Part shown: piece by piece, positions 1 through 23,536 of the stretch
How positions within the stretch are numbered: position 1 is the first letter of the stretch
Layout of the letters: every line of letters begins with the position of its first letter
Translations under genes and position numbers: made by a program
Notes under the pieces: model-generated
The model's database searches: none
Seen by the model: the letters and a program-made list of their open reading frames with translations, nothing else
What the model was told of the DNA's origin: nothing
Source: a virus
Virus record (IMG/VR): IMGVR_UViG_3300024267_000011
Coordinates: 1 to 33,502 of that record
Reading direction: 5' to 3' (one strand)
Length of the DNA stretch: 33,502 nucleotides

Positions 1-1475
1 TTCTGGGTAGGATTAGCTAAACCTGTTATTTTTTGGTTATCTGTAACATGTATGTCGCCGGCGCCTGTAATTAAAATTCCTCTGCCGTCAATATCTGCGC
101 CGTTTGCTATAACATTAAGTGTAGTAGCACTTTGTACAGTATTATTAATTGTAATTGTACCTTGTACTTCTAAGTTCTGTAGTTGACCTACTCTGGTAAT
201 ACCAGTTGCAGTAACAATACTAGGATCGATTGTTGTATTAGTAAGTTTATCTACTCCGCCAATCTTATAACTTGATGTAGTATTAAGTAAGTCAAAGTTT
301 ACGTTCGATGTAAATGCATTTGTAACATTTTTCCAAAGTATATCTTTACTTCCTGCACTACTGTTAACGCTAATACCAGATGCATCTGCTTGTATATTAG
401 TAAGTTCTGTACTATCGTTTAATACACCAATTTCAATAATTTTATCTTCAACTCTTAGAGTTTGTACATCAAGTGCAACTCTGTCGCCTTCAACAACTAA
501 GTCTCCAGTTACTCTTAAGTCCCCGTTTACATCTAAAGTATACTGAGGTGTATTTGTAAAAATGCCTACACGTTCTGTTGATGCATCTATGTACAATGCA
601 TCAACAATAACTGCACCCGATGGCGTAGTTCTGACACGCAAACTTATATCATTATCTAATAATTGATTTTCAAAATAAAATCTTGGGCCAACAACTTTTT
701 GAACATGGTTTTGTGATAGACCGACTGTTAATCCACCTGAGTTTTGAATTGTTAGTGTACCGACAGTAACTCCGTTAGCGTCCGAAGGCAAAAATTGATC
801 AGCTGTTCTTATAACGCCAGCTCCTGTAATAAGAGCATTAGCACCACTAGCAGTACCATAAAATCTAAAATTAGTAGCGTTAATTACATTTATGCCTTCA
901 TTTATTATTCCAGATGGATTATCATCTGTTACTAATCCTAAAATTCTTTGGCTATAAACAGGCGTAAATGTTAATCCGCTTAACACAGCAACTAGTTCGC
1001 CGCCGATATATAAATTTGCCAGTGTTCTTGATCGAGATTGAGTATCTAGTATGCTTTCAATTTTAAATCCACTCACATCTTGTGATTCAGTATATTGCGG
1101 TCCAACTAAAATTAAATCATTGCCATCAAATGCATAAAGTTGATTTTTTAAATTATCAATCCATAAATCGCCAGCGACCATTTGCGGTCTAGTATTCTGT
1201 ACATAAGGGCCGCCGCTGGCTTTCCATGTTGTGCCGTCATAGATTTTTAATCTTTCGTCTGACTTGTCATACCATAGTTGACCTACTAACGGATTAGTAG
1301 GAGCCGAAGTGTTAGCAAAATTTTCAAGTAGTTTAATAAAGTTTTCATTAAACGCTTCGCCGTATCCTGAGTAGTTTCTGCCAACTAAAACAAGGTTAGT
1401 AGACGAATTATCAATTTGTCCATCTATTAATTCAGTAAGTAACGTTCCGTCTGTTTTGTTTAGTTGATAACTCAC
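1..1475 (-). CDS. Tail fibre-like virion protein, 3' end cut by window edge
   Basis: An open frame of 491 codons begins at a GTG (1473-1475) and runs off the left edge without a stop. The GTG lies one base past the stop of the upstream collar-domain gene, and the GGAG Shine-Dalgarno is inside that gene's last codons, so the two are probably translationally coupled. The first ~130 residues are clearly paralogous to the neighbour, sharing GRN..(S/T).YG.A, ENF..LLENFAN, GQLWYD and YDGTTW.ASGG. Near residue 300 both carry a VGI.T..P...LDV.GD motif. Beyond that, this protein has a segment with VEDKIIEIG and DASGISV, which I recall from cyanophage fibre-like proteins. No catalytic motif is visible. 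The role is inferred to be a baseplate-attached fibre or adhesin; the receptor-binding end is outside the window. The reading frame is certain, the exact role is not. Confidence 0.75.
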   Translation of the reverse strand, partial: MSYQLNKTDGTLLTELIDGQIDNSSTNLVLVGRNYSGYGEAFNENFIKLLENFANTSAPTNPLVGQLWYDKSDERLKIYDGTTWKASGGPYVQNTRPQMVAGDLWIDNLKNQLYAFDGNDLILVGPQYTESQDVSGFKIESILDTQSRSRTLANLYIGGELVAVLSGLTFTPVYSQRILGLVTDDNPSGIINEGINVINATNFRFYGTASGANALITGAGVIRTADQFLPSDANGVTVGTLTIQNSGGLTVGLSQNHVQKVVGPRFYFENQLLDNDISLRVRTTPSGAVIVDALYIDASTERVGIFTNTPQYTLDVNGDLRVTGDLVVEGDRVALDVQTLRVEDKIIEIGVLNDSTELTNIQADASGISVNSSAGSKDILWKNVTNAFTSNVNFDLLNTTSSYKIGGVDKLTNTTIDPSIVTATGITRVGQLQNLEVQGTITINNTVQSATTLNVIANGADIDGRGILITGAGDIHVTDNQKITGLANPTQ

Positions 1476-1476
1476 T

Positions 1477-3528
1477 TTATTCTCCAGTATATATTATGTA
1501 GTTTACAGATAAAAATGGATTCATAGTTTCTATTGGTTGATTAAGGTCCCCTGTAGTTTTTACGCCACCACTTGCAGGAAATGCTTGAGTTCCTCCTGTG
1601 CCTGGATCTATTGTAAATGTTATTGCTTCTTCATCAACTGGTTCGCCTGCGCCTACTCGCAGTCCATAATATTGCGTTCCTGACGGCGCTTCCATATCGT
1701 GCTCGTGTTCAGGTAAATTATCTGTGTTAATTGTACTTGCTTCGCTTCCTGCATTTCCGCCTATTGCATCTGCTGCAATATCGGTAACTCTGTTTGCAGA
1801 TTGTCCTCCCATATTGTCTAAACCTAATGCAAATCGTCCGCGCAAATCTGGAAGTGCAAAACTGTTTACTCCCTCATCTGCAAGTAAAGTTGCGTCTTTA
1901 AAGTTAAATCCAATTGCAACAAACAACTCAGTATAATCTGATTTTAAAACTTCTGAGCCGTCGCAAAATAACCATCCTTGGGGAGCATTTTCTCCGCCAT
2001 AGGGCATTATTGCACCTGGCGGAACTAAAGGAAGAGTTTTAAGGAAATTTCTTTTTGATATTCTATATACACCAGTTGTTCCAGTTGTTGCATTTAGCAA
2101 TAATTCGTCTGCATTAGATGCTTCAAATGTTAAATCTTTATTAGCAATAAAACTGTTAGCAACCTTTATGTTAAAAGATTTACTGGTGCCGCCTTCTTGG
2201 CCGTCAAATTCAAAACTATTGTTTTCTACATCACCTGTTACAGAAAATGTAGTTGCAGCCGAAAGTCTATCTGCAGACCCTGCTCTACCAGTAATTGTAC
2301 CACTAACATTACCTTGTACATTACCTATAAAGGTATTAGCAAAAATTTGATCATATTTGTTATTTGTTGTACCAACATTTCTTGTACCAGACGTATCGGG
2401 AGCAATATTTCCTGTTTGTAATATTCCTCCTATATCTACGTTGCCGCCGACAAATAAATTTAAAGCAATTCCGGCGCCGCCGCTGGTTGTAATAGAACCG
2501 CTGTTTATACTTGTGCTGTTGTTAGTGCTAGTTATGTTAAGTATGCCAGATTCTGGAGAACCATCTCTAGGAGATATTGTTATATCACCTTTGACATCTA
2601 ATTCTGTTTCTGGTGCAGTGGTATTAATTCCAACAAAACCTTCAGAATCTAATCGCATAACTGTAGGTAATCCATTGGCTGTTTTCAACCTAAAATCAAT
2701 ATTAGATCCTACAATATTTTGTTGCAAAATTATTGCTTCATTTTCTACAGCAACTTTTAGTTGATTCCCTGAACCAACTGATACTCCTTCGTCATTTTTT
2801 ACTATTAAAGGAAAACTTGTTTGGCTTATTGCATTGCCTCTAAGGAAATTTATTGCAGGTACAACTTCTTCACCAATAATAAGTGCTTCTGCTTTTTCAG
2901 AAATACCATTATATTTTAAAGTGTCATTAACTAAAGGCTGGTTAGTAATATTCATGCCAGCCTTTATACCTTGTCTAAAACCTGGAATTACTGTTTTAGG
3001 CACAAAGTCGCTATCTGATATAATTATTGCAGGCTTATCTTTAATTTTAATAGTTAATACTGAATAAACACTATCATTAGCGCCTATAATATTTTCAGAT
3101 TGTGTACCTGTTAACAGTCCGTCACTAAATTCTGGACCAACTAACACCCAAGCAGCGCCAGTAAACAAATATAGCTGCTGACTATCTGTGTTTACCCACA
3201 GATCACCTGATATGCTATTAGATACTTCTGGTTGACTTGTGCTTTTCTTCAATCCTCCGCTAGCAGTCCATGTTGTGCCATCATATACTTTAAGTTGATT
3301 AACGCCTTCACTACTATCATACCATAACTGCCCTTCTACTGGTCGATCTGGGGAATTATTATTTGCAAAATTTTCTAAGAGATGTAAAAAATTTTCTGCA
3401 ATAGCCTGACCGTACGAAGTAACGTTACGGCCGGGTATAGTTAAGCTTGTCTCTTCATTAAGAGTAGCATCTTCTACTATTATTGTTCCTTTGTTTACAA
3501 TATCTGTATAACTAATTTGATATGCCAT
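1477..3528 (-). CDS. Tail fibre protein with phage tail-collar domain
   Basis: A 683-residue protein. Residues 1-130 form an N-terminal module shared with the next gene downstream, probably the attachment part. Around residues 296-313 is a VGINTTAPETELDVKGDI motif. Residues ~500-580 match the phage tail-collar family: the entry PPGAIMPYGG, then GWLFCDGS, then the FALPDLRGRF core. The end has the histidine-rich LPEHEHD and the terminal NPFLSVNYIIYTG typical of this family. T4 gp12, the short tail fibre, carries the same type of collar domain, but overall resemblance to gp12 is not evident. The ATG follows an AGGA 7 bases upstream, and only four bases separate it from the stop of the preceding gene. 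The likely role is host-surface recognition or a baseplate-attached fibre. A structural role is well supported; receptor specificity cannot be read. Confidence 0.85.
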   Translation of the reverse strand: MAYQISYTDIVNKGTIIVEDATLNEETSLTIPGRNVTSYGQAIAENFLHLLENFANNNSPDRPVEGQLWYDSSEGVNQLKVYDGTTWTASGGLKKSTSQPEVSNSISGDLWVNTDSQQLYLFTGAAWVLVGPEFSDGLLTGTQSENIIGANDSVYSVLTIKIKDKPAIIISDSDFVPKTVIPGFRQGIKAGMNITNQPLVNDTLKYNGISEKAEALIIGEEVVPAINFLRGNAISQTSFPLIVKNDEGVSVGSGNQLKVAVENEAIILQQNIVGSNIDFRLKTANGLPTVMRLDSEGFVGINTTAPETELDVKGDITISPRDGSPESGILNITSTNNSTSINSGSITTSGGAGIALNLFVGGNVDIGGILQTGNIAPDTSGTRNVGTTNNKYDQIFANTFIGNVQGNVSGTITGRAGSADRLSAATTFSVTGDVENNSFEFDGQEGGTSKSFNIKVANSFIANKDLTFEASNADELLLNATTGTTGVYRISKRNFLKTLPLVPPGAIMPYGGENAPQGWLFCDGSEVLKSDYTELFVAIGFNFKDATLLADEGVNSFALPDLRGRFALGLDNMGGQSANRVTDIAADAIGGNAGSEASTINTDNLPEHEHDMEAPSGTQYYGLRVGAGEPVDEEAITFTIDPGTGGTQAFPASGGVKTTGDLNQPIETMNPFLSVNYIIYTGE

Positions 3529-3532
3529 ATTT

Positions 3533-4123
3533 TTATCCTGTCAAACTCTGTACTCTTACTGTATAATCAATCTGTATCAAACGGTTAAGTGACTTTTGTA
3601 CAGGATGGAAAATAACATGAGTAATCAGTCTGCCAGAGCCATCAGGACTATAACTTTTTAACCCTAATTCATCAAATACATAAACATCATTTGTGTTACT
3701 TGCTGTATCAAATGCCTGTTGTCCATCTGGTTCTCCGTAATCTAGTAAACAACTTACAAGAATATCGGTATAGTTTGTTCCACTTAAATGCCTTGTTTCA
3801 ATTTTATTCCTTGTAGGATCTATATTGTTTACACTAGCATCATCAACAACTTTAGTAAAAGTCTGATTGTAAAGTGCTGCATTTGTTCCTGTTGAGTTTG
3901 GTGTTAAGTATGTTATAATACCTGTTGGATCAATGTTTGTTCCTCCATTACCAAAACTCATCTCATATATAAATCCTTCGCCTGCATTTGCAAGACTTTC
4001 AGCTAATGCAATGCTCATGTTTTCATAATGGATTGCATTACGCTTGTTAATGTATACCTCTTGTGATTCAGGGTCAAATATTTTAATGTGACCTTGTACT
4101 AATATTCCATGATTTTCTTGCAT
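3533..4123 (-). CDS. Small virion structural protein of T4-like marine phages (function unknown)
   Basis: A 196-residue protein from ATG 4121-4123. A longer 200-residue reading from TTG at 4135 is possible, but the ATG has a GGAT six bases upstream and gives an N-terminus (MQENHGILVQGHIKIFD) like relatives I recall in cyanophages. It shows a conserved head, then YINKRNAIHYENMS, then FIYEMSFGNGG, and ends in a beta-rich segment (IQIDYTVRV). There are no signal peptide, membrane segments or catalytic motifs. It sits where T4 has gene 8 (after genes 6 and 7) but is much shorter than the 334-residue gp8 and is not recognisably gp8. It has its own late-type promoter overlapping the stop of the giant gene. 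It is probably a baseplate or fibre-linker component, by context only. Confidence 0.7.
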   Translation of the reverse strand: MQENHGILVQGHIKIFDPESQEVYINKRNAIHYENMSIALAESLANAGEGFIYEMSFGNGGTNIDPTGIITYLTPNSTGTNAALYNQTFTKVVDDASVNNIDPTRNKIETRHLSGTNYTDILVSCLLDYGEPDGQQAFDTASNTNDVYVFDELGLKSYSPDGSGRLITHVIFHPVQKSLNRLIQIDYTVRVQSLTG

Positions 4124-4149
4124 TATATTATCCAAATTATCCTATACTG

Positions 4150-4157
4150 TATTTATT
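4150..4157 (-). promoter_or_regulatory. Late-type promoter AATAAATA before the 196-residue gene
   Basis: The minus strand reads AATAAATACAG, matching the T4 late -10 element (TATAAATA) in seven of eight bases. It overlaps the stop codon of the giant gene by two bases and ends 26 bases before the ATG at 4123. Placement at a gene boundary and similarity to the gp6 element support it; no transcription evidence is available. Confidence 0.55.
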
Positions 4158-7100
4158 AAGGTTGTTCATATGTGCCAGCACGTAAGAATCTTGCTATTGA
4201 ATTTTGTGAATTTCCTAGCATCTCGTTGTCCTTAGTCCATACTTGACCTTGTCTTTTTATTATTGTAACCCTTGAATTTTCTTGTGGAGTATCTAATAAC
4301 GTTATTGTGTTATTTTCTGTATCAACACTAAACTCTGCTGGTAAAATTATGTCTCCGGCTGGGCTGGTTAAGGCCTTATTCTGATCAAATACAGCTATTT
4401 CATTTTTACGCAACCGCTTACCAGCAGCAAATACTTCAATTTCGTTAATACTATCTATATTATATCCTATAGTAAACGTAGTGCTTGCACCGTCGGCAAT
4501 TAGATTTGCAACTAAATTTTGATCTTTGTAAGGTACAGTTTTATCTTTGTTTTGATTAAATACCTTTTGGCCAGTAATGTGAATCTCTGGCACTCCGGTG
4601 CCTAGTGTTCCTCTTCTTATCTGGCGTAATGTATTTTCTTCTTTAACAAAATATTCTATTCTTTCACCGTTAATGAAAATGATGCCTGGAAGATTTTTTC
4701 CTTTGTCAGGCATTGGCAAATCTTCTCCATTTTTTACTTCTATTCTAAGATCATTATATGCCAAATCTTCTACTAATACTGTAGAATGTGCATCTAGTCT
4801 TTTGTAGTGCGTTCTATTAAGTATATCTTTGAACTGTCTGTATGCAAATCCTTCTACTGTTAGATTTGCAGTAAAATGAATTATTTCTATTGTGTCATTT
4901 TCGTTTGGAATAGTTTCTAATCGCAATCTCATTTTGTCGTCAGTAATAAAATAATCAACACTAGGTGTTAACAACTCTCCATTTTTATTGACCCAGACAT
5001 ATTGTGCATCAATAGCGGGAGCTCTTAATTGTATTTCACCTGCTGTTAGTCTAAAGTATGTGCTTAGTTCAGTGTCAGTAATGAGTGCTTCTCGTTTTAC
5101 AATATCATATTGTATTTTTTCTATTTCCTTTAAGTTATGATTACTAAATTGTGTAACATAGATATTTGCGTTATTAGCAGGAGTATCTTTAAGTGTAATT
5201 TGATTTCCGCTAATAATGTACTCGCTCTCGGCTATATTGTAAACTTCAATTGTATCGCCTGGTTGTCCGTACTCATCTCCTAGTATGATAGAACTATTAG
5301 AAATATCTAAGCGCCATTCTGTTGGTGTAAAAATTTGCTGTCCGTTTAAAAAGACTAGCATAGTTTCTGCATCCAAAGACCCTGCCGGCTGTTGGAATAA
5401 TTCTAACTGATATTCTCTTTGGTTGTTTTCAGGTATGACAAAGTTCTTACTATACCCACTATTAAGAACTTTTTGATCAACTCGTACAACAGTATTATGT
5501 TCAGTAGGAAGTGCATAAAATGGTGCTTGGCCTAATGTAAATACTTCTTGGCTGCCTGTTGCTACAAATTCATCAGTAATAATTTGACTATAATTAACAG
5601 TTTCATTGTCTGACAATATTGTATAATTTAATGTTTGTCCTAGCGTTGCTGGATCAGTAAGTCTAAATGCTAGTCTATTATCACCTTCAACAATTGTTGA
5701 ATAATCGAATATAGTTATGTCTTGTATATCACCGTTTAGAGTTACACTTAGAGCAGTTTTATCAGTGTATTCGTAGTCTATTACAAAATCATATTGCTCT
5801 TGTTCTGTTATTAGTAATTCTCCACTGTCTATTATGTTAGTAGATGTAGTATCTTCTTGTAATATAATAGACAAAGTTTTGTGAGCTTCTACATCTACCG
5901 TTAGCTGTTTTGCTGGCCAGTTTACATTAAATTCTGACTTATCTAATAACTTACCATCATATTTTACAAGTATACTATCTATAGTTCCCGGAAGTATATC
6001 AAAATTATAAGTAAATGATCCTGTACTTCGTGTTCTAAAGTTTTTGCAAGTTATTAATCCTTGACTACCAGACTTTCTTGTAAAAACCTTTAAGTCTAAT
6101 GTATCAAAAACAGATCCTGGCACTAATTCTTCTGTTTTTGCTCGAGAAGTAGAAACAAACAAATCACCGTCTGTGATTATTTCTTCTGCATTTATACCTG
6201 CTGCTGTAGTATAAGCTAAATCTCCGCCTTGTAAAGCACTATCATAGCTGTCTAAATCAGGAGCAACACTACCGTCACTTGTAATTTTTCTTACAACTAA
6301 TACGTCTCCGTCATTTAATGCTATTCCTAAATTTTGAGTTTCAATAATTGTAGTATTACCATCACCTATGATACTATTAACTATTGCATAAGAATTTGTA
6401 GCTGCATCTTCGTCAAACTTAGGATCGTCAATTCTTACCCCATTTCTATATAAATTATAAACTACGTCTTCTTCAAGAGGAGCTCTTAGTTCTACAGCAA
6501 TTGTAGAGCCATCAGATATAAAAATTTCGTCCTCAAACGTATTCTCATATATGTCCCATGCGTCTGTATACCAAGGTTGACTGTCCCATCCGCTTGGTCC
6601 GCCAAAATCAAAACTTTTTACTTCAACGCCGCCGTAATCTATGCCTGTCATTAATTGATTTAGATCTTTACCAAACATATTGTTTGTAGGATTATATGCA
6701 AATTTTATTCTATCTGCTGCATCTAACAAACTTAATGGTTTATAATATTCCACTCTGATTGCAGCATTCGATGCTGGAGGTGTAGCAAATAAAATATTAC
6801 CTTGTTCATAGGTGTAATCTTCTACTTTTTCAACATTACTTGCAACGTAAGTACTTCGTAACATTTCTTGATCATTTACAAACACTTTAATTTTATTTTT
6901 ATTTAAATCTAAAGGCCATTTAAGATCAAAGTTAGCATCAATACCCGAACTAGTAAATGTTTCACTTAGGAACAAATCTTCAACAAAATAATCTCCAGAT
7001 ACTCTATCAAATTTAACTTTTATACTAGGTGTCCTTATTAAGCTTTTTCCTAGGATTGCAAATGCAGTTGCAATTTCACCGTCATCAGTTTGTGACCCTT

Positions 7101-10100
7101 CTAAAGTAATCTTAGGAGGAGTTATAAACATTCCTCCTGGATTACGAACTATAATTTTTGTAACTTTACCGTATCCGATAAATGCTTCGGCTTCTGCTTT
7201 AGAATTATTATCTTCAATAATTACTTTAGGAGGAAATATATATCCAGATCCTGCATTTTTAATTTTTATTTCTAGTATTTGAGCGCCGATATTATCTGTG
7301 AAGAATTTTCGTGGATATTCATCTAAAACAGTATCTACTTTTATAAGTTTATCTTCTTGTATTGTAGATTTAATTGCTTCTATTTGTTTAGTAACATCAT
7401 TATAATACGGACCTGCGTCAAAATCTGTAACTGCTGTATTTGTAGGTTCTAATCTATTATGTCTTGTAACGAACTCACGTATTTTGCTGCTATACGGTTT
7501 TACTTCTTCTACATAATCTCTAAAATATGATAAATTATCATTTCTAAATGTTGCAGGTTGATCTAAGTCTCCTACATTGTGATTAATCTTGATAAAACTA
7601 GTTTTAAATGCCCAATCTAGTGTAGGTTGTTCTGCAACTGCATAGCGTAATCCGCAGAAGAATAAATTTGTATATTCATAAGCAAGATCATTTACAAATA
7701 TCTTATCTCTTAATGTTTCAAATATTATTCTAAGTTCTCTAGAGGGATTATTATCAAATAGTACACTATCAAAACTTCTATTATCGTATCCCACTGTTGT
7801 AGTTACATTGTCATACAATGTAGACAAAAGTGTTATAGTTCCTTTTTCTCGTCCTATCGTTTCGTAATCTACAGAATAATCTTCACTATTACTAGAACCG
7901 ACTCTTTTTAATAAAAGCCAGCCGGATCCGCCAATATTTTTAATTTTAATAATACTATTAAATTCTGGATTAATTGTTTGTAATTGATAAGAAGCATCGA
8001 TTTCATAGTTTATATTTGTAAATTGGTTATATCCCGGTGCATACCAATCCTTGTAATCCCAGTATTTTGTTACATCAAAGCCTTGACTTAACCGACGGAA
8101 CCAATTTTTTTGTATTTCGTTGTATCCATATACACTCCATATACTGTTTGCAGTAGAATCTGATTTTACAAGTACACTAAATTTACGTACAGTAATACTT
8201 GTATCTGGGCCATAACCGGATCCTTGAGAAATAATTGTTGCACCTGTAACATTGCCTAAACTATTGATTACTAATTCTATTTGTGCGCCGGTGCCTTTGC
8301 CGCGCAGTTCAATAGAAGGCGGAACTTTATAACCTCTGCCAGACGAAGTTACATCAATCCTTATTATTTTTCCATTTGAAATAACTGGCTGCAATTTTGC
8401 TTGAGCAACGTTGTTGGTACTTACAAACTGTAGTTCTTCAAAAGTGTCTACAGTTGTGTCATACTCTCTCGATACTATGCTAGGAGTTTCATCAGTCAAT
8501 AATAAATCAGAAATATCATAATCGTCAACTATTAATAATTCTTCAAACTTAAAATTTATTCTCTCTATTGTTTGTTTTAAAGCTTCTGCTCTATTAACAA
8601 ACATTGTTTGACGAGGCTGATTAAGTATACCATACTTTTGTCTTTTTGGTAAGCTTATATCAGGAACAGGCCTATTATTTGTATCAAAGCCTATTAAACT
8701 ATCAAACCATTTACGCTCAATATCTAAATCTAGTTTAGAATTGCTATCTCCTTCTGATAATAATTTAAATTCAACGTGTTCGTTTGAATCTTTAGTAGGA
8801 TTAGATTTATATTTGACATTAAGAACAATATCATTACTTAATATTAAATTATCAAAATTGTTTAAAATCATCCTATTCTGGCCAGTAAAACTAATATATC
8901 TATATCCAGTTTCTCTAGGTGTGCGTATTAAGGACTCGATATCAAAAATACTAATTGTTCGATTTTTTATTTCAGGTATAGTTCTTTTATTTTTTACCCA
9001 AAAGTAATACTTGGTAGAAAAAACTCTTGCTACTTCATCATAAGTTAATTTTGAACTAAATTTACTATCACCATAAATTGGTTGTCCACTAATACCAATT
9101 TTAATTCCTTTTTCTGTGTCTGCAAGTTTAGAATACTGGCTTGGCAAATAATCCGTTTCTACCCATTCATAAACATCTATTGATGCTCCTTCAGTCAATT
9201 TTGACCATGTGTTTTTTTGTTCAAGGATTGTTCCTTGGTATGGATAATCAAATCTTGCAGTGCTTATGTTCCACCAAACTTGTCCTACATGGTCGTCGAA
9301 CCATGTCTGGTCTGGGTCAACTTCTCTTTCAAGGGTACTGCCAACATTATAATATGCAGGATCACTACTAGTTTTGTAAGTAATATTTGTTTCTGCGATT
9401 CCTGCAATTTTTCCTTGTATTGGATCTATATAATCAACATAAGAAACAATTCTATTTTCTTTTGTGTTATACAGATATGCCCCTTCAATTAATTCTAAAT
9501 TTACTGGTGGAACAATTTGTTTATACTCATTCCATGCTTTTTTACCTTTTGGTTTTCTATAATCTACTAGAATACCTTTTTCAGTTTCTAGATTATAAAA
9601 CGGAATGCCTACATAAACGTGGTTATTTTTTGCAAGTAAATTTTTTCCAAATTCTGCTGTAGTACTATCAAATTTAAATTGCTCGCTGTATATGTAAGAA
9701 TTATAAAGGTTTTCATAAACGTATACAACACCAGTGTCTATGCCAACATTTCTAAATTCAGTAAATCCTAGGTCGAATGTAGTTTCGGTTCTTTCTTCTG
9801 AATTTGTATCTAGTAAATAACCCGTTAGTCTATTTTCATATGTGTCGAATCTAGTTGGGATCTTTTGATCGCCATTTAAGCTTGTAATTAATAAAGTTTC
9901 ATCAGTAAACCCAATTTCGTAGCCAAAGTTTTCTGCAATTTCCCCTTGTGGGCTATATAAAAATTGTGGTTCTTGTGATGTAAAAGATCCATTATTTTGA
10001 GTGTATACTAAAACTAGTCCTTGTTTATATTTTCTAGTATTATCATTTAGTACACTAATAACTATCCGTGTACCATCAGGACTAATAGCTACTTTATGTG

Positions 10101-13100
10101 CCCAGTTTGTTTTATCTACAAAAACATCAGGAGTAGCATTTGGATTTAACGTTCTTGTACCCGTTGACGGAGTAGCAATTTCGCCAGCTGTATCCCTATA
10201 GACCCAATTGCCGTCTACATCTGTTTCAAATTTATCTAAATCATGATCCTGTAATTCAAACCCACTTAGTGGCGCTGAAATAGTTTCGTAAAGTTTATAC
10301 TTACTATCTTCTTTCCTATAAATTGCTATTTTTTTATTTGACGTACTATCTGTAGATTCTAGCAGTGCAGTAACAACTAATATTTCTCCGTTTTTACTTA
10401 CATCAAAGCTTTTACTAAATTCAATTATATTTTCATTTGGGTCAAAAACATCTTCACCTAATAAATTATTACCTGTTAAGTTAGGCAAGTATCCTAGATA
10501 ATCTATACTACTAGAAATTTGTTCCCATAGATTTTCAGTAAACTCTGTTCCTGCTGCAATATTTGTTTTAGCTGCATAGAACATATTATTATATAAGACT
10601 ATAGATCCTATTGCATAACCATATGTGTTATCCCAGTTTCCTCTATAGTTTTCGTCGACACCATACTTCCAACTAATATTGTTCCAAATAACAGAATCTA
10701 GAATATTTAATTGTATACCTTCGTCTGTATCTTTATTTGCAACATAAAAGTTGTCTTTATATAGAACAATATCACCTTGTTGGTATACAGTAGACTGGTA
10801 CTCCCCTTTAAATCTATCATTATCGGTCGGGCCATGAGTAAAAACTTCTATACTACCTGGATCAAATCTTGTAGAAGAATTTAAATCTCCTTTAGATCCA
10901 ACTAATAGATGGTAGGTATTCCCAAATTTTCTAATTTTAACTTGATCGCCAAAATTTCTTTCATTTTGCTTATACTGACTTGTTAAAACGTAGTCAAATT
11001 CATATAGGCCATTAGGCTGTCGTCTATAGATAATTACAGCACCTTCGTTAGACAATCCGCTAGAAGTTCCTCTAATATTTGCTGGGATATTATACACTTG
11101 AGACCAATCTTTATTTAGACTGTTAGGTGCATTAGATAATCTATTAATGCCGCCTTCTATAGTTTCATCAAAGAAGTAATATTCTGATTCTAAAATCTCT
11201 GCATTGTCTACTGCTATAAACACATCAGTAGGGTCTTGACTATTTTTTTCAAATACTATTAATTTTCCTACTTTGTCAGTTCCTAGTATTATACTGTTGT
11301 CTACATCCTCTACAGTACCCATTACACGATCGACATCGCCGGAGCCTCTGATTGCTTCATTTGCTAATCTTCGTATTTGGAATTTACCAATGTTGTTTAG
11401 CTGTGTCCATGAACCGGAAAGTACTTTTAAATAAACTCGGACTGAATTAAATTGTTTTCTATAGCTAACAATTTGAGCTGTACTAGTACTTTTACTAGTA
11501 AGAGCAAGTCCGCCTTGGCCGTCTCTAGGAAATTGTACATCTTGTATAACATCTCCTACAACAGGTTCAAATGGCTCACCGACAAAATCAAATTCTGTAA
11601 ATTCAAAATCTATATACCCGTCCCAAATATCATACAGTTTATTTTCATTATTTAATTCATTAATGTTATAACCTTTTGAATTAACATCATCTATAAAAGC
11701 TTGTGTTTCATTAAACTTTAATTTTAAAGTTTTGTTATTTTCATTGCCCGGACCTACTAATGCTCCTATGTTATCTAATAAATCACTATAAGATTTTCCG
11801 ACTCGTACTGCCCATAAGTTGCTTTCTTCGTCGGCAATATCACCTCTATAACTTAAATTTGTTAGAAAGCTAACACGATTTTTATTAAGAACAAAATTAC
11901 CTATATCACTTACTGTGCTTTGTATATTATAATATACAAAAGGTCTAGTTACATCGTCATTGCTGCTAGGTCTAGTATCTGCATACACTAATCCCCTACC
12001 TATATCTAGGTATCTGCCATTGTTTGCATAAGTGAAACCAGATATTAGATTTCCTTGTTGGTCAAACTCAGCTGTGTTGATGTACCAAAATCCTCCTACA
12101 GATGGCGTAGTTGCATAAGTTGATTCTTGAGAATAAAAACCTATAAAGTTACCATTGTTAAGATCAAATATTTCTCCAGTAATATCTATAATACCATTAA
12201 TGTTTTTCAAATATATTACAGCACTATCTCTATAACTTGCTACGTAAAAAACTTCTCCCGATCCTGTATCAGTTTCTACGATTTGACCTACTGTGGGTAA
12301 ACTAACATATGTTTCTACAAAAAGAATCGAATCTATTTTTTCTATAATTTCGTGTTCTTGATTTAAAAATTCGGGTGTAATTTCTGATATCTGGTTATCA
12401 AAAGGCAAATATTCATCGAGTGTAGGATATGCATAGCTTACTGAGTTCCATGCTAAACTAACTTTGTCGCCAGGTTGATCACCAATTTGACCTTTTGTTC
12501 CTATATACATGTCTAAAGGAGCACGTACTAATATATGGTCTATATTTCCTGTTGGTAATCCAAATTTACCCGAAACTAAGAGCTGTAAATTAGTACTATC
12601 TGTATCATCTCTTGATGTTAAATCGATATAGCTATCAAAAGTAGAAAATGGCTGTGTTCCTATCTGAGGGAACACAGTTAAATTTGCTTGCCAAAAAGTT
12701 TCTCTAAATTTTACAACATCATGTTTTAAATATTCTACATCAGGATTAAAGTCGCCTAGATATTTTGTTTTTACGCCAGATGCATTTGGAACTCCGATTA
12801 CTAAATATTCACCGTCGCTGCTTACATCAATGCTTGCTCCATATTGATCGAAGTAATCCATATAGCCATTAGGAGAATCAATTTCTGTCCATTTAAAACT
12901 ATTAAAAGTTTCTTCACTAGTATAGCGTTCATCGGGCTGTAATGTCAAATTAAGTAGATAATATTTGTCATCGTATCTTATTCTTGCACCGTTTCTATAT
13001 TCCGTAAATGGTTTCCAATCTGATATTTCGTCAAATGATAAAACTTGTTGTAATTGCAAGTTTGCATTTTCATTTGACCTTTTGTATATAAAGACCTTGC

Positions 13101-16100
13101 CGCTGTCATCGCCTGCAGACGATACAAAAACATTTCGATTATCGTCTGTTGCTGCCATTGAATCTGTAAATTTTTGTTGTGTGCTGTCCCAGTCGCTAGG
13201 ATTATCATACTGATGTAAAAAAGAGTATACTTTTTGATTCTGTATAACTTGCCAATTTGAATCTATATTGTCTATCCATAACTTCTGGTTTTCATATATA
13301 TTCTGATCTACTGTTGTATTTGCTTCGCTAGCATTTTGAATTCTTACTTTACGTAATTTTGTAACTATTAAGCTTTCATTTATAAAACCATTTATGTCAT
13401 TGCTAAGTGGAATCTTGATAGCTATTTTATTTAGACTTATATCGATAATTTTATAAAATCCGTTAAAGCTATATTCATCTGCTCCTCGAACAGCAATCAT
13501 TTCTCCAATTTGTAGACTATCTCCTACCCAAGTATCTAATTGTAATTCAAAAATTAATCTACCTTGACTATCTAATATATCTGCTTCTGTCAACTGTGTA
13601 GCATTTAACCCTGTTTCGACATGTTGATATACTGTCCAATCGTTATTATCTTGATTAGTTAAATGTAAGTATCCGCCTAACTTAAATACATTAACGTTTC
13701 CTAAAGCTAAATCGTCTACGCTTGCCGCTTCAAAATCGATGTCCTTTTCATCAACATAACCAGAAGATTTAATAAATTCAGTTGTGTCCTGTAATCTAGG
13801 AAATACATTACTAGTATAATCTAACGGTTTGTCTAAAAGATCTGATGGCAAAACTCTATATATGTTATCAAAATTGTCTGCTGGCAAATTATCTGTAAAT
13901 AGGACCGGTTGCGGGCTTTCGATCATCTTAGTATCAGTCAGTGGTATTTCTATTTGTTTTACTTTTTCAGAAGCACCATACACTCCACTTCGTACAGCCC
14001 ATTCTTCAAAAAATTCTAGACTTTCTTCTCCTTGAGCACTTAGTGGCTCAAAAAGTTTACTTAGAGAATTCTTTGTTCCCTTTTCTTGAATAAACCCTTT
14101 GTAGAATTTTAATTGACTTACATCATCTACTATTAAGTTACTTAGATAGTTTCTTTTCTGGAAGCCAATTAATCTAGCAGAAAGGTCATGTAACGTATCA
14201 TCAAAACTAGCAGTGTTTACTTCATAGAAATCATTAAATTGTGCAACTCTGTAATCAAAATTACTCACTAAATCAGGTACTGGTTTCGAATTTAACAAAT
14301 ACCATTGATTATAGTCAAGAGTTGCACTGCCAACAACATTTTGTTTTGCAACATAATAATATTCTTTATACTTAATTAAATCACCTATTTTATAATCTTG
14401 ATAATTTTCAAATTCTTTGACAACAGCATTATCGTAAATAAATCCAGGTATATTTAAACTGCCGTTCCATTCAGCAGCTTTATAACCGTTTAATTTAATT
14501 CTTTCTTGTCTATAACCAGATGCAGGATGATATATCACATCATTAAAAATTGTATTATTATCAAAAACAACAACATGTTCTTTTTGAACAATTGGTAATG
14601 CAGCACCGTATAGTCCGAGGTCCGTATCTTTAATTACAATGCCAAAATTATTTTGATCTCGTAGAATACTATTAAAATTTCTATCCAATAATTGGCCATT
14701 GCTAGAAACTATTGATGTATCATAGAAACTGTCAAATACATCATCTACTACGGCAAAGTCTTGTTGGAATACTAATTGGTTTGCACTAGGGCTAACACTT
14801 ATAACTGTTCCGTTTGACCATCCTTGTGTAGTCCAAAACATAAATTCTTTTGTAACAGACGACCAGTCATTTACAACTTCATCGGTAACATCATCAAAAG
14901 TAAATCCTTGGGTTTCTAAATATTTTCCATATCCTAATAAAAAGCTAACAACTTCCTGTATATTTCCAAGAATAGTTCCATATGCAAGTTTTTTTGTATT
15001 GATAGTATCAAAAGTTTTATAAAATTCAGCAGAGCGGCCGCCAATAGAAGGTAAAGCAGGCAACTTAGCTAAAAATTCTGTATCAAATAGTTCACTACTT
15101 GTAAAATCTTGTGTTACTCTGTAATATGTGTTTAATTGAAAAACAATTTGATCTTTTTTATACGGTGTTAGACCACTCCAATTTGAATATTCTTCACTTA
15201 TACCTCCTACAGTCACAATAAAATTTGTTGATCCAAACAAAGGTGAATAATAATTAAAGTAAGAATTTTTTTGGTTATATCCGCTTATCTTAAATCCGCT
15301 AGATGTTTTTTCTATAATTACGCCGCTATATATAAAATTATCTATAGGTGAACTTACATTGTACACTAAGTTATAATTTTCTTGGGGGATGAAAATGCCA
15401 CTAGATCCAATATCTCTGTTAGGAGTTTTACTTTCTAAAACAAAATTAAGTTTATTTTTATCTGAAAAACTTCCTAACCTAAATGATAAATTTACTTGTA
15501 AATTTTGAATTTCGTTTTGATAATCTGTATATACTTTTAGTATGTCGCTTGCTACAAGATTATATGTAAAATTAATTAAACCACAAGTAATATTTCTTTG
15601 ATCATCTGCGTAGGTATTAGGGAAAATAATATCTGTATTTTTTATACTGTTTTGCGTATCTTTGTAAACATACTGGCCTGCTAAGTTTTTTGTAGATCTA
15701 GATAAATCAAAGCCCTTGCCTATAGTTTCAGCAGGATTTAATAGTAACATAGATTTTAAGATAGAGAATGGATATTCTGAACTTTTACGCCATGAACTTT
15801 CTATTGGGGAATAATCGCCAAATTCAAATGCTGAATCTGCAAACCGCTGGATGAACCCTTCGATATAGTTAGTCTTTACTGGCGGAACTAATTTTCCAAT
15901 TTTATCAACTGGAATAAAAGTTGTTAAGCCAGGTCGTGCAAATCTTTTATCAATTCTCGTATTATTAGGATCTGCAATTTTACCTTTTTCAAGATCTTCC
16001 CATAATAATAAGTTATTACTTGTATAAGGTGCTGGCCCATAAACTGTATTCCACCACGTAGGTTTCTTTTGGAGGCCTAACATTTCCCATGGATGAGAAT

Positions 16101-19100
16101 GTGGTTGGTCTGTATCAAATGCTTGTTTATATATGCCTCTCCAAAAACCAGGTATCTGCGATCCATTTATTCCATTTGAACTTTTATAATTGAATGTAAA
16201 TCCGTTATTCCTATCATAAAAACTGTTGTCAGAATAGTCACCTTTTAACGATGATTGCCAGGTTATAAAATCAGTCAGTAATATACTATTAATAGAGTCT
16301 ATGTTGTTTTTAAATCCTCTAAATGCGCCGCCTGTAAAATTATACAAATCAAATTCATTATCATCATAGTTTATTTTAATATTATTGAAGATACGCTTTT
16401 CTAAATCTAATAATAAACCGTCTCTAAAATCTTTGTAACAAGCAACTTGACTGCCGTCATGTCCTTTAATAACAGGTATACCAATTGGGTATAATTCAAT
16501 ATTTAAATTATCATTTCCTGCAAGTGTGCTGTTTGTTTCAGGCACATAAAATTGCGTTGTTAACCCTTTAAACCAAATACTGTTTACGTTACCTGTGCCG
16601 CCTTCTGCAATATCACTTTGCTGTGCAGAATTTTTAGACGTAAATACAGGATGAAACCACCCATGAAGATTTTTCTTTTCACCTGTGTCAACTTCGCCGT
16701 ATACCTTAAACGGTCCTGAAATCAGTATATCTACGCTCTCGCTTCCGGTATCATCTAAAACAATTTCAGGGTTCCAAGTAGGGTAAAGTCCTAATTTAGA
16801 CGGTGTTGGTGCAATAAAAGATCCATCAGTACTGTTATATTCGTATATCTCTATAGTATCGCCATTTTCCTTGTCAGCAGTAATTTCAATAAACCCGTCT
16901 GTATTAAAATTATAATCTCTTCCATGTACTAACATTGTTCCGTTAATGTATGCAATTAACGACTGTGGCGTAAAGTCAGATAATTTAAAACTTTGGGTAA
17001 GAGGAAAAATATTAATTTCTTTGTCGATTACATTATATTCTATACGATTACCATTACCATACCCTAACATGTCACTAAAGTAAAATGGTTGCGACTTAGA
17101 TTTATCGTTATTAATATCTTTTAAAATTCTATCAACATGCTTATTAGTTGTTCCGTCATAACCTAAATTAGTAGCTGTATCAATGAATATTTTTTTGAAT
17201 TTTGTATATTCTTTATTAGAATATTCTACTGCTTTAAGTAGATTATATTTCTTATTTGTTATCTGATAAATTGCATTAACTAAACCAGCTTCGTGCTTAA
17301 CAAATCTTTTTCCAAACTGATTAATTTTGCCTGCGTCTCTAAGATTACTGTTGCCCGGATAAACTCCTTCAAAAGTTTGTATATCTTCAATCATGCTGTC
17401 TACATGATCATATACTTCTCCTAAGGTAAATTCTGTTACATCTTCGTTTAACGGATTTCTTTCTAAAGAAATTGGAAGTTCGTAATATCCGTTTTGATTT
17501 TTTGCTTCTTGACTATGTGTTTTGATTTCTAATATATCATCAACTGCCAAGTCCTGTACAAAGTTGATAATAACTGAATTTCGGCTTTTTGTAATAATAT
17601 AATTTTTATTTTTAAATTGTAACGTATTATTGACATATACGTGTACTTTTAAATCTTCTAAAAGATGCGGTTTATTGTATACATCTATTTTAAAATTATT
17701 TGTATTATTGCTATCAACAACAATATTTTTTATAACATATTGTTTAAATCTAGACGGTGTTGAATTCCATCCATTTACATATTCAAATGTATCTCTATTT
17801 TTATACTTCCTAAGATTAGCTGTAGCAACATTTATAGATATCAATTCATCATTTTCTTGGTAAGAAAAATTATCGGTTAATAAGTTAAATTCAAATAATA
17901 TATCGCCGGCATTGCTGATATTTCTATATGCTAAAGGAAATCCTAATTCAGTATCGGTTATTCCTTCTCCTAGTTTATATGAAAATATCTTAGTACCATA
18001 AAAATTAGAACTTTCAAATACCGAATTATCACTGTATGCAGTGCCTTCAGGGCAACATAAATCAAACAGCGGTGCTTGATTTAATGATGTTTTGTCTTGT
18101 GCTAGTGTCCAATTTAAATTATGATAATGTAGTGTTTTTCCTGAGTATTTGTTTCCATTTTTAACAAATACAGTTTCTAAATCAAGCGGGAGTGAATCTG
18201 CGACTTCAATAAGATTTATAATTCTATCTTGACCGATAGTTACAAAATTAACCTCAAATATTTTTCCGCTCACTAATACATCGTTGTCTTTAGTGAACAA
18301 AATTCTCATACCTTCAGCAATTTCTACTGAGTCGATAATATAACCTAGTTGTCCTTGAATAGTACTAAAGACATCTGTAGTAAAATCGTCTACAAGGTCT
18401 ACGTCTGCTTTTGCAAAAGTTCCATTATTAAATAATTTTAGTCCTGCTTCAAATTCTATTATAGGACGCTTTGCTCTAAAATTGTCATCTAAGTTTTCAG
18501 GTAAGCCATTATACTCAAAGCTCTGTAATACAACTTGTTTATGGAACCATCTGTTATTTCTTGACCATGGATTTTTGTCTTGTGCAGCTCTATTAATAAG
18601 CAAGTAATCTTTTTGTAGCGGAAAATTATTAGCTGTAGAGAATGGCATTGTATCAAATGCCTCAGTATCAAACGGTGTTTGTATATTATCTGTGTATGTC
18701 GACGGAATAGTAAGATCAGATTCAGAAATTAGTGTTATTGCTGAACCAACGCCTTCTACATACCATTTACCTGTACTATATTTTTCAGGTATAACTGTGC
18801 CTGGAAATTCTACTTTTAATCCATTAGTTAATTCTATACCGTTTGAACTAGTGTAATATTTTTTTCCTAAGATATCATTTTTAATGTTTAAAAACGTATT
18901 TTCTTCTACATCATAGATTCTAATTTGTCCACTTGTATTGATATCATTTTGACTAATATAAAATAGTCTGTTAGGAGCATTTGTCGGTATAGTAAATTCT
19001 ATTGTGCCTTTTTCAATGTATACTACTGCAATTTCGTCGCCGGCATCGTTAAACTTACTAATACCGTCATTATATAAAGTAGATACATTTTCGTCTGCTT

Positions 19101-19905: not shown

Positions 19906-22900
19906 TAGTAACTATAACCTCCGCCTGAAGAACCACTGCTTGAACTACCTGAACTGCTCGAACTGCTCGAGCTACTTGAACTACCCGAGCTGCTTGAGCT
20001 GCTTGAGCTACCTAAACTGCTTGGACTGTTACTATTTGTACTTGTTGAACTTGTTGAACTAGAAATATTTGATACAGCAGATGCGCTAGAAATTTGAGAA
20101 GTTGCATTATTAAAGTTTGTTAATACATTTCCTGCTGCTTGTAATTGAGATGCAGTATGCTCTTGAATAATCTCTATGTCTGATACATTTGCTCCGCTAA
20201 TGAAAATTTCATCAGGTTCAGATCTTATTTCAAACAAACTTCCAAAACTTTGACTACCTTGTCTAGGGACTACAACAATACTTACTAATTTAGGTGTAAG
20301 TTGATTTATTATGTAAGCAGCAAGTTCTTGGAAATAAAATGTTTCTCCAAAATCCCAATTTTCAATTGCAAAAAATCTATCTATACTGTTTACTACGTCT
20401 GCTTTAAGTTCGTTGTCATTTACAACTACATCTTTATTTCTAACTATCTTGAATATCACTTGTAGATCTTCTTTTGCTTTTTTGCCGAACAATATTTTAT
20501 ATTTTACAGGATGATATATTACTTCGTCTGTGATAGATTTTATTTTTGATATATCACCACCATAATTTCTAAATAATTCATCATTACTTTGCGGCAATGG
20601 TAAAGATTTCAAATTACCATTTAAAAATTGTCTAATATTTGTGTCATAATTTTTAGTTAACAAATACGTATCAATAATATTGCTTACCGCAGGGTCTATT
20701 CTGTAATTGCTATCTGCAACATGTCTATAACTAAATCTTAAGTTATTTCTACCTGTATATGCTTTATAGTCTGTTATTACGGTTAAATTATTCAAATTAG
20801 CATTTAGTTGTTTAAATATCTTTTCTTCGAAAAGATAAAATATTTGCGTAGGATTATCATATTGACTGTATGCGCCTATTGCTTTTTCATTTGTTTTTAC
20901 TTGTATAGTATTGTCAGAATTATCATAATATCTATATTCTTCTACGCCGTCTGTAGTTACATAGCGTTTTAAAAATATTAATTTAGATTGAGGATCAGTA
21001 TTAGGTTCTACAATTTGATTAAACAGGTCTGGATCATCAATAACTCCGTCATTGTCTAAATCAAAAAACTCAATTTGTATTTTTCTTGAGTCAACATAAC
21101 CCTCTTTATCTCTGTATGCTCCGCTAATGTTCCAATCAAAACTCGTTGTAAACGGAATGTTGGTTTGAGGTTTAGTATTAATATCTAAAATCTTAATTGT
21201 ATCACGAATTATTTTACCAGTTTTAGGATCATAAATTTTATCAGCACTATCAAAGAAAAATCTTATTTCGTCTTCGCTTTCAAAAATATATCTTAAATTT
21301 CTTGTAGTAAGTGTATATTTTTCTCCGTCGGTTTTAAAATACAAAAGCCAACTTGTATCTAAATTCTGGCCTGTAATATCTCCTGCTTTACCTAGAGAAA
21401 AACTACTAATAGTATTAATATTTTCAGCAAGAATTAATTTCCATACAGACTCACTTCTGTCATATCTTAAAGCAAAATCTTTATAAGCAAATGCCTGATC
21501 TATAATTTGTGTTTTTAAATCGTTTGAGAAAAATGTACTAAACGTAGGTACAATTTCTGTCAATATAGCTCCTGTAGGAATAAAATCAGTAAGTGTGATT
21601 CCGCCAGTATTAGTTTCTGCATCTATAGATGTACCATCATCTACAACATTTGAAATTTGAGTCCATTTGTATTCAACAGCATTAGGATGGTCTGCTGCAC
21701 CTTGCATTAACCCATGTTCATTATTTTTCATAAAATGGAAACCTGCCGGTGGTGTAAATTTCAGCATAGTTCCTCTTTTAGCTGTTTTTAAATTGTTAGC
21801 TGTAAAAGCGCCAACCTTGATCTTATTTCCGTCAATGTCTTCTAATGTACCTAAATTAGAATTAGTTGTAGATTGATAACTGTTCCACGAAGCTCCTAAG
21901 TCTAAGACTGAGATATCTGAAAATTGACTTATATAATAGTTTTTTACACCTGAAGATCTAATTACATTTTGTAGTGTGTTAACTATTATGCCCTCTATAT
22001 CACTTTGGCTTGAAAAATTAAAATCTTGTTTTGTTTCATATAATTCTTTGTAAATAACACCGTCGTCTGCAAACAGTTTTGTAGTACTGTATTTTCCGCT
22101 TGGGTCTTTTATATCTAAGTATCTACTTATTCCACTTGAAATTCTGTTTACACTTTTTGTTTTAATAATTTCTTGGCTTACAGACAGCGGTCCTATATTA
22201 TAATCTTCGCCTGTTATAAGTCTATTCTGTGTATAATAAGATGCAGGTGCATTTGCTTTGATTTCTGCGTTTGTTTCGGCGCCAGTGCCGTTAGTTATAC
22301 TGAAAGGGAGTCTAAGTCCTAAAGTAATAGTTTCTTGGCTTCCTGATTTACTTTGATAAGGAATTGCAATATTAATATTACCTATTTGTCCCGGCGTAAC
22401 TGCTAATGATTTATTAATACTTGTTCTATAATATATTTTAAAGTTCCCAGCAGGTAAATTACCAAATACACCATCACTGAACACTAAGTTAATTCTATCG
22501 CCAATTCTACTTTCTACAGAAAATATATTTCTTACTTGGTTAAAGAGACTGTTATATATTATGTTGTTACCTTCAGTAGAAGTTAATTGTGTCCAAGAAG
22601 TTGTTTCAAATCCATTAGTATCTACATTGTATAACCATACATCTGTGTTATTAATATTACTTGCATCAATCGACACTACTTGATTAGGAACAGGATTTTT
22701 TACGCTAAAATTACCTGTTTGTAATGCGCCTTGTCTAACGTGCATAAAGAATCCAGAATTAGAACTTCCTGCTCCTTGGCCGTCGTCCCTATATAAAAAT
22801 GCAGGTGACGTTCCGGGTAACGGTGATTCTTCTTTTATAGTTGTATTTGATATATCTGCACTTACTACTTCAAATCTAACACTATTTCCTTCAATATTTT

Positions 22901-23507
22901 TTGTAAACGGAAAAATTGCTGTGTCAGTATTTGTTGCATTAAATCTATATTTTTGCGTTTGTATTCCTTCAATATTTGCATTTTTTAAAGGATTACCTAT
23001 AGAATTATTTACTGGCAGTGCAGCATTTAAAATTTTTGTAAATTGCTCAACATAGTTAGTGTTAGAAGTGTCATTCCACTTTATTACATTATTAGATAAA
23101 TTTAATCCAGCACTATCAAAAAGAGTTTCAGTAGTTTTTACTGTTGTAATTTTCATAAGCCCGTTTGCAGCTTGATTACGTTTTGGATTATATGAAAGCA
23201 TACGTGCAAGACGTAGTACACTTTCTCTGCGTTCTGCTGTTTCGAGGAAGTTTTCACGTGCATTTAAATCAACACGGAAGGATAAGTTTTGCCCAAGGAA
23301 AGCAATCATGTCAATCAGCGCAAGGTATTCTGAAGATTCAATATAATCATTAAAATCTTCTGGATAATTTTGACGCAGGTAGTTAATCATGGATCTGCGA
23401 AGATTATCAAAATCATAACTTTGAAAGTCTGCGTTCCTAAAACCTTGATATATTCTTTTCCAGTCTTCGGCTACTAAGAGCCTAGTCTGTCTATCACTTG
23501 AAGACAT
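19905..23507 (-). CDS. gp6: Baseplate wedge protein gp6
   Basis: A 1200-residue protein, nearly twice the 660 residues of T4 gp6. The N-terminus (DWKRIYQGFRNADFQSYDFDNLRRSM by parts, then IDMIAFLGQNLSFRVDLNARE) matches my recollection of cyanophage gp6. The C-terminal third has the gp6/baseplate-J type segment (FYFQELAAYIINQLTPKLVSI, PDEIFISGANVSDIEI). In T4, gp6 dimers form the inner ring of the baseplate wedge that changes shape when the sheath contracts. The middle expansion has no motif I recognise. Residues ~1149-1200 are an extreme serine-rich tail ending GGGYSY. The ATG has an AAGGA seven bases upstream and a perfect late promoter before that. Its stop overlaps the start of the giant gene, so the two are probably translated together. 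Confidence 0.9.
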   Translation of the reverse strand: MSSSDRQTRLLVAEDWKRIYQGFRNADFQSYDFDNLRRSMINYLRQNYPEDFNDYIESSEYLALIDMIAFLGQNLSFRVDLNARENFLETAERRESVLRLARMLSYNPKRNQAANGLMKITTVKTTETLFDSAGLNLSNNVIKWNDTSNTNYVEQFTKILNAALPVNNSIGNPLKNANIEGIQTQKYRFNATNTDTAIFPFTKNIEGNSVRFEVVSADISNTTIKEESPLPGTSPAFLYRDDGQGAGSSNSGFFMHVRQGALQTGNFSVKNPVPNQVVSIDASNINNTDVWLYNVDTNGFETTSWTQLTSTEGNNIIYNSLFNQVRNIFSVESRIGDRINLVFSDGVFGNLPAGNFKIYYRTSINKSLAVTPGQIGNINIAIPYQSKSGSQETITLGLRLPFSITNGTGAETNAEIKANAPASYYTQNRLITGEDYNIGPLSVSQEIIKTKSVNRISSGISRYLDIKDPSGKYSTTKLFADDGVIYKELYETKQDFNFSSQSDIEGIIVNTLQNVIRSSGVKNYYISQFSDISVLDLGASWNSYQSTTNSNLGTLEDIDGNKIKVGAFTANNLKTAKRGTMLKFTPPAGFHFMKNNEHGLMQGAADHPNAVEYKWTQISNVVDDGTSIDAETNTGGITLTDFIPTGAILTEIVPTFSTFFSNDLKTQIIDQAFAYKDFALRYDRSESVWKLILAENINTISSFSLGKAGDITGQNLDTSWLLYFKTDGEKYTLTTRNLRYIFESEDEIRFFFDSADKIYDPKTGKIIRDTIKILDINTKPQTNIPFTTSFDWNISGAYRDKEGYVDSRKIQIEFFDLDNDGVIDDPDLFNQIVEPNTDPQSKLIFLKRYVTTDGVEEYRYYDNSDNTIQVKTNEKAIGAYSQYDNPTQIFYLFEEKIFKQLNANLNNLTVITDYKAYTGRNNLRFSYRHVADSNYRIDPAVSNIIDTYLLTKNYDTNIRQFLNGNLKSLPLPQSNDELFRNYGGDISKIKSITDEVIYHPVKYKILFGKKAKEDLQVIFKIVRNKDVVVNDNELKADVVNSIDRFFAIENWDFGETFYFQELAAYIINQLTPKLVSIVVVPRQGSQSFGSLFEIRSEPDEIFISGANVSDIEIIQEHTASQLQAAGNVLTNFNNATSQISSASAVSNISSSTSSTSTNSNSPSSLGSSSSSSSSGSSSSSSSSSSSGSSSSGSSGGGYSY
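19937..20032 (-). repeat. Imperfect 9-bp repeats encoding the polyserine tail of gp6
   Basis: On the plus strand, nine-base units such as gaactgctc, gagctactt and gagctgctt follow one another about ten times. On the coding strand they give runs of three serine codons mixing TCN and AGY, broken by occasional glycines. Short tandem units like this could change length by replication slippage in steps of three residues without breaking the frame into the downstream overlapping gene. Confidence 0.8.
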
Positions 23508-23528: not shown

Positions 23529-23536
23529 TATTTATA
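23529..23536 (-). promoter_or_regulatory. T4-type late promoter TATAAATA before gp6
   Basis: The minus strand has an exact TATAAATA followed by CTTTG, in the 57-base gap between gp25 and gp6. It ends 21 bases before the gp6 ATG, leaving room for a short leader that carries the AAGGA ribosome site. This is the element recognised by gp55-type late sigma factors, and a gp55 gene is present in the window. Confidence 0.8.

Follow-up and report, generated by a model that had tools for sequence, protein, structure and literature searches.

A T4-like baseplate cluster that ends in three tandem fibre-like genes with a common head and position-bound tips

The IMG/VR virus record IMGVR_UViG_3300024267_000011 (33,502 nucleotides [nt], analysed in full and referred to as the window) comes from a relative of giant bacteriophages and contains a T4-like baseplate gene cluster, at the end of which lie two adjacent tail-fibre-like genes, here called A and B. 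A nearly identical contig showed a third such gene, C, just past the window end. The three genes are tandem paralogues, with a common N-terminal head and different distal parts. They probably arose by copying, after which the distal parts were replaced or diverged and were then fixed by position. The set is old and mostly fixed, and its relatives show fresh copying and tip exchange; it adds a clear new example to a type of fibre evolution that is already known.

Shared head of A and B

The first-pass annotation of the window had described A and B as sharing about 130 N-terminal residues and a VGI.T..P...LDV.GD motif at the same position, near residue 300. Residues 1-135 of A and of B aligned with each other at 118 bits (45% identity across 138 columns; E 7e-38, with 201 sequences in the database). 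The identity between A and B was 42% in residues 1-50, 56% in residues 51-100 and 32% in residues 101-150, and it was only 3-30% in the later 50-residue blocks, indicating that "about 130 residues" is an accurate description. The complete proteins aligned at 32% identity over 336 amino acids (aa), with an E value of 1e-40.

The head contains short repeated GQLWYD / GDLW-type hairpins, and its profile gave weak matches to similar repeats in unrelated phage proteins, as would be expected if the likeness of the heads reflected convergence or low complexity instead of descent. This explanation is highly improbable, being already contradicted by the 118 bits of the alignment compared with at most 20.4 bits for 200 shuffles of B. 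In addition, 18 columns were invariant in a head alignment of 14 sequences.

In agreement with the annotation, the motif starts at nearly equal positions, residue 299 of A and residue 303 of B. It is a weak marker, because its strict form was rare (4/84 A and 5/84 B proteins of related loci), a looser form was common (58/84 A and 49/84 B), and the A profile matched the cell-wall anchor protein 8ojn at residues 275-337 (whole-sequence E 1.5e-5). Among the C proteins, neither form was present (0/84).

Searched against PDB sequences, the head profile gave one chance-level match (E 0.74). VIA-align listed TSP4-N, a weak match at Z 2.6 over 64 residues only. Against the single T4 sequences of gp6-gp12 and wac the head profile had no significant match, the best hmmsearch E value being 0.032 (gp10) and the hhalign probability below 1%. 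A description of this head family was not met in the literature searched; these searches do not exclude one.

A third copy and a conserved gene order

Contig L003 is identical to the window at 11,512 of 11,528 overlapping bases (99.9%), and contig L004 at 11,510 of 11,528. Both contigs complete B, to 633 aa, and carry C (494 aa) with the same head. C aligned with A at 31% over 315 aa (E 1e-35) and with B at 38% over 167 aa (E 7e-38). Further copies to the left of the left gene had been suggested as something to look for, and C is such a copy.

Related loci were collected in two scans, the first with A (80 loci) and the second with the head profile (77 further loci). Each scan represents the best 80 matches, so that close relatives are over-represented, and the 157 loci come from 152 contigs (five were taken twice) and include near-identical viruses. 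Among the matches listed, the A-B-C order was consistent in 80/80 loci of the first scan and 77/77 of the second. A, B and C were all complete, with no extra copy, in 115 of the 157 loci listed (56 and 59 in the first and second scan, respectively), and the remaining loci were interrupted by contig ends, save two with an extra copy. These two, L126 and L129, belong to one virus; in both, a fourth copy (X) lies after B and before C. X is 46% identical to C over 299 residues and then has a differing distal part. A protein of about 200 aa stood directly before the first head gene in 130/157 loci, among the matches listed; of the other 27, 17 had too little upstream sequence and 10 start with B or C at a contig end.

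Two irregularities were observed within the array. In L129, three small open reading frames (ORFs) lie between X and C (8517-9955); two of them were checked by Pfam and gave no match. In L119 (5393-7323), B consists of two ORFs of 194 and 380 aa between an intact A and C, which may be a real split or a sequencing error.

Tips of the three proteins

The annotation had assigned a collar domain to the end of one gene and a different module to the other. The collar domain of A (PF07484, residues 505-566) scored 60 bits against a cut-off of 24 (E 2e-16), and it resembles the T4 gp12 structure 1ocy (E 0.0012). Gp10_C (PF21939) was found in A below the Pfam cut-off (19.7 bits compared with 27). The tip of B could not be seen in the window, because the end of the gene lies outside it. 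Complete B from L003 had no Pfam match at E 0.05, the collar included, which excludes the case that both genes end in the same collar domain.

In a Foldseek search with the structure model of B, no PDB entry reached E 0.1 (the best was 0.13). VIA-align scores peaked at Z 4.8 for the middle part and at Z 4.2 for the tip region. Against BFVD, B had 24 matches at E 0.001 or better, from which nothing functional follows because they were mostly unnamed phage proteins with query TM-scores of 0.16 or less. The B profile gave weak PDB matches to fibre and tailspike repeats at residues 433-499 (E 0.001-0.016).

C had no match to PDB sequences at E 0.1, and its Pfam matches, to Peptidase_G2 (21.5 bits compared with a cut-off of 25, E 1.7e-4) and to a cement protein, were below threshold. 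The tip of C has the fold of the phi29 gp12 C-terminal fragment (Z 10.2, 95 residues, 2.8 Å, 25% identity), and the C-tip profile finds phi29 gp12; an HFTV1 capsid protein matched at Z 10.5. A D-x-x-E pair of the C tip aligns with D692/E695 of phi29 gp12, residues that we take to act in self-cleavage.

Tip divergence and exchange

Divergence was studied in 84 thinned loci, out of 116 with complete A, B and C. The tips of A, B and C had no cross-class BLAST match at E 1e-3. Within the classes, none of the 3,486 A pairs and none of the 3,486 C pairs lacked a tip match at this threshold. The B tips diverged fastest, with 605 of 3,486 locus pairs lacking a match, and all 84 still link at E 1e-8; the fast change may be attributed to divergence, exchange or selection. 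Head and tip distances were correlated in all three classes (rho 0.72 for A, 0.53 for B and 0.28 for C), each above all 200 permutations.

There are two C-tip types. Four loci have the rarer type and four are ambiguous (counted as type 1), and the tree of the 84 loci needs two changes. One of these viruses shows a clear tip exchange. L111 carries the common C-tip type, although all other nearby segments tested place it in the rarer-type group, and its sister L119 has the other type. Across the region that begins with the gp6-side gene and includes three genes beyond C, all tested segments of L111 were closest to L119 or L112, except residues 366-499 of C: these were 38% identical to L112 and 72-75% identical to L116, L095, L098 and L109, while residues 1-200 of C were 93% identical to L119 and 88% to L112. 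A chimeric contig is unlikely, because the genes after C were again closest to L112 in three of the three tested before the pattern fades.

A clear replacement of a tip after recent copying was found in L170, whose two copies are 88-94% identical up to residue 250 and unrelated beyond, one of the tips being Peptidase_S74. L167, with three copies, was rejected as a case of this kind: identity between copies 1 and 2 declines gradually, starting at 96% and reaching about 30%, and each of them has a Gp53-like_C end, so that only copy 3, with a Peptidase_S74 tip, differs in tip family. In L167, each of two near-alike fibre genes has behind it its own small ORF with similarity to tail assembly chaperones (ORFs at 12540-12956 and 14884-15321), with Phage_tail_APC above the cut-off in the second and below it in the first.

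The absence of cross-class tip matches, the mismatch of the L111 C tip with its sisters and the unrelated distal parts in L170 support the tip replacement that the annotation had proposed. Its further proposal, that this is a source of host-range variety, is not shown by these data: the set is position-fixed in the lineage of the window, where A tips diverge with A heads. An alternative explanation would be an active receptor-switching cassette, in which three genes are kept in order to shuffle tips and change host range quickly. The exchange in L111, the new distal part of X in L126 and L129, the fast B tips and the fresh copies in L170 and L167 are in its favour. We nevertheless regard it as unlikely, because the tips are position-fixed in the 157 loci, among the matches listed, tips of different classes do not match each other, no A or C pair lacks a tip match, and the C-tip type changed only twice on the 84-locus tree, with the ambiguous loci counted as above.

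Head trees and origin of the copies

Long-branch rows were left out of the later head trees. The heads of A, B and C formed separate clades in one tree (91/88, 98/95 and 99/96, respectively) and in a second without long-branch rows (A 98/97, B 97/85, C with X 100/99). Copying also occurred separately in other viruses. The six heads of phage XacN1 and the two of L170 each formed their own clade in the first tree, and the three of L167 did so in three trees (94/93 in one). The two heads of phage PA5oct (gp358 and gp359) formed their own clade in the first tree and joined L167 in two later ones. A grouping of A with gp358 was rejected by the approximately unbiased test (p-AU 3e-5), as was one of C and X with gp359 (p-AU 2e-4), indicating that like tips sit on unlike heads or that heads were homogenised.

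The third copy, the head clades and the single-copy relatives in the same gene order support the duplication that the annotation had suggested. We propose that one gene, most simply a C-like one, would have been copied in tandem at the end of the T4-like baseplate cluster and that the distal parts were then replaced or strongly diverged. Triplication of a C-like gene is the simplest reading, not a proven one, and is preferred because relatives that have just one copy, with a C-type tip, show this gene order too. The set would later have been fixed by position, with tips mostly diverging together with their own gene and rare exchange between viruses. The head of about 130 residues most likely docks each protein at the baseplate periphery, and each protein is most likely a trimeric fibre composed of the head, a fibrous middle and its own, presumably receptor-binding, tip. 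This tip is a collar in A and a phi29-gp12-like domain in C; that of B is a small domain of no assigned class. Trimer folding is probably driven by the domain at the tip of C, which may be removed by cleavage.

Several results weigh against this history and architecture. Both structure models were poor overall (mean predicted local distance difference test score 60; predicted template modelling scores 0.23 and 0.29). The B tips diverge fast, and C heads and tips are only loosely tied to each other. In the first head tree, with long-branch rows kept, neither A nor C was a single clade, and two changes were needed for each. A, B and C as one clade relative to the single-copy lineages was not recovered and not rejected (p-AU 0.171 and 0.391). 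A clade of C with the single-copy C-tipped genes was not rejected either (p 0.118), so that the single-copy lineages may have lost A and B. A placement of the single-copy lineages outside A+B+C was dropped, because the head trees do not settle this fork.

Distribution of the head in named jumbo phages

Twelve named jumbo phages were examined. The head gene follows a homologue of the 200-aa protein in ten of them (Phosso, Atu_ph07, PA5oct, RaK2, 121Q, CBB, GAP32, XaC1, Vibrio 2.275.O and SCTP-2), as one copy in nine and two in PA5oct. The six tandem head genes of XacN1 (L088, 16496-25552) lie far from the baseplate cluster, and the printed sequences have Pro/Thr/Ser-rich stretches beyond the head. 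No head was found in the RAS14 stretch.

Atu_ph07 (Polybotosvirus) and Sinorhizobium phage Phosso share with the present virus the order of wedge gene, giant protein, 200-aa protein and head gene, and the C-type tip; they differ in having one head gene instead of three. The Phosso protein matched C over its full length (26.6%), and the head genes present as one copy in Phosso, Atu_ph07, L245 and L249 have a C-type tip (E values between 1e-26 and 1e-30). A search of the viral collection with the complete Phosso protein gave no relatives.

PA5oct is similar in having two adjacent head genes, gp358 with a Gp10_C tip (85.3 bits, E 1e-23) and gp359 with a C-type tip, and different in that its heads are not those of A and C by p-AU. 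Its record notes detection of gp357-gp360 by electrospray ionization tandem mass spectrometry, indicating virion proteins. CBB_230 and CBB_231 are among the structural proteins identified by mass spectrometry (PMC5259590). The available part of PMC10253068 names ten fibre proteins, and the RaK2 head protein is not one of them.

The comparison joins scattered "hypothetical" virion proteins (RaK2, 121Q, CBB, GAP32, PA5oct, Atu_ph07, Phosso and XacN1), together with many environmental viruses, in a single head family whose copy number ranges from one to six. In these phages, the head alignment predicts the anchored-fibre genes and the point where the tip starts. A broader, tentative interpretation, which we would not favour at present, is that a broad jumbo-phage group uses the head as a general plug-in anchor. 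It might dock on the giant or the 200-aa protein, occur in one copy (RaK2-like) or in two to six, which would allow different fibres on a single baseplate, and carry C-type fibres that are released or matured by self-cleavage of the tip. The 5,249-aa ORF of the window occupies the slot of a 3,323-4,555-aa structural or hypothetical protein in seven of the named phages examined, and its product is a candidate docking partner of the heads.

Comparison with known systems

T4 gp10, gp11 and gp12 are regarded as descendants of one fold, are co-transcribed and are located at the baseplate edge; their common part was found by structure and cannot be detected by sequence (PMC3004832). The present set resembles them as adjacent paralogous genes after the wedge genes 6-7-8, an order that the window matches, gp7 and gp8 presumably having their counterparts in the genes that separate gp6 from A. 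The collar of A is a further likeness, to gp12. In contrast to the T4 set, the common part here is an N-terminal head that is detectable by sequence, and the head profile had no significant match in the single sequences of gp6-gp12 or wac.

These likenesses raise the question of whether A, B and C reflect an ancient division of labour, as parts of the baseplate edge (pin, interface and short fibre) and not as alternative receptor binders. The gene order corresponding to T4 genes 9-12 after 6-7-8, the gp12-like collar of A, the Gp10_C end of the collar-side copy in PA5oct, the fixation of tips by position and the reading of the T4 set as descendants of one fold (PMC3004832) are all consistent with it. 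The lack of a significant head match in the single T4 sequences argues against it, and the exchange of tips and the additional copies seen in relatives fit receptor binders better. We consider such a division of labour conceivable but rather doubtful, and retain the reading of A, B and C as fibre-like paralogues.

In the Ackermannviridae (CBA120, S117), the adjacent receptor-binding tailspikes TSP1-TSP4 combine conserved N-terminal parts with C-terminal parts that vary; they were proposed to have arisen by duplication of one tailspike, and recombination of tips was observed (PMC11414711). The present genes are likewise neighbours with a conserved N-terminal part and variable tips. The N-terminal parts of the Ackermannviridae tailspikes are gp10-like XD/TD domains, through which a branched complex is assembled on a single anchored spike, whereas such domains were not found in the present head by Pfam or PDB sequence search. 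For fibritin (wac) of T4-like phages, swaps of the C-terminal module are mostly old and followed by slow vertical divergence (PMC3797505). A shows this pattern of an old swap and slow divergence. The difference is that fibritin is a single gene for a collar whisker, and the present genes are a tandem family for a baseplate-side protein. The set thus works like the T4, Ackermannviridae and fibritin cases; membership in the gp10 family or in the branched tailspikes is not shown. The set also allows old, fixed duplicates to be compared with fresh duplicates that have swapped tips.

Gene layout and neighbouring genes

The cluster genes are read on the minus strand, in the order gp25-like gene, gp6-like gene, 5,249-aa ORF, 200-aa protein, A and B (Pfam and PHROG; Table 1). 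The A and B ORFs are one base apart.

Table 1. Positions of the fibre-like genes, their parts and the upstream genes in the window
Feature	Position	Strand
Gene A (683 aa), encoding a tail-fibre-like protein with shared head, fibrous middle and collar tip	1477..3528	-
Head of A, residues 1-150	3079..3528	-
Motif VGINTTAPETELDVKGD of A, residues 299-315	2584..2634	-
Phage tail collar domain of A, residues 505-566, PF07484	1831..2016	-
Gene B, first 491 aa, GTG start; same head, other tip; open at window end	3..1475	-
Head of B, residues 1-150	1026..1475	-
Motif VGIFTNTPQYTLDVNGD of B, residues 303-319	519..569	-
Protein of about 200 aa, phrog_11259	3533..4135	-
5,249-aa single open frame	4156..19905	-
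gp6-like baseplate wedge protein, phrog_10646, E 5e-296	19905..23507	-

The sequence TATAAATA, which we take to resemble the T4 late promoter motif, is located before the gp6-like gene (window position 23529) and just before C in L003. Among 86 distinct stretches upstream of C, 8 contained it no more than 80 nt from the gene, too few for a rule. It was absent before A (0/81), before B (0/86) and inside each gene (0 of 84-85).

The gp5-like hub protein (24018-26756, minus strand) bears a Peptidase_M15_4 domain; a lysozyme domain was not listed by the Pfam scan. In L003, two further ORFs follow C (13496-16726 and 16773-18083; 1076 and 436 aa). They do not resemble A-C, and one has a weak DUF4214 match. 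The two share repeats and aligned with each other at 50% over 131 aa and 36% over 127 aa.

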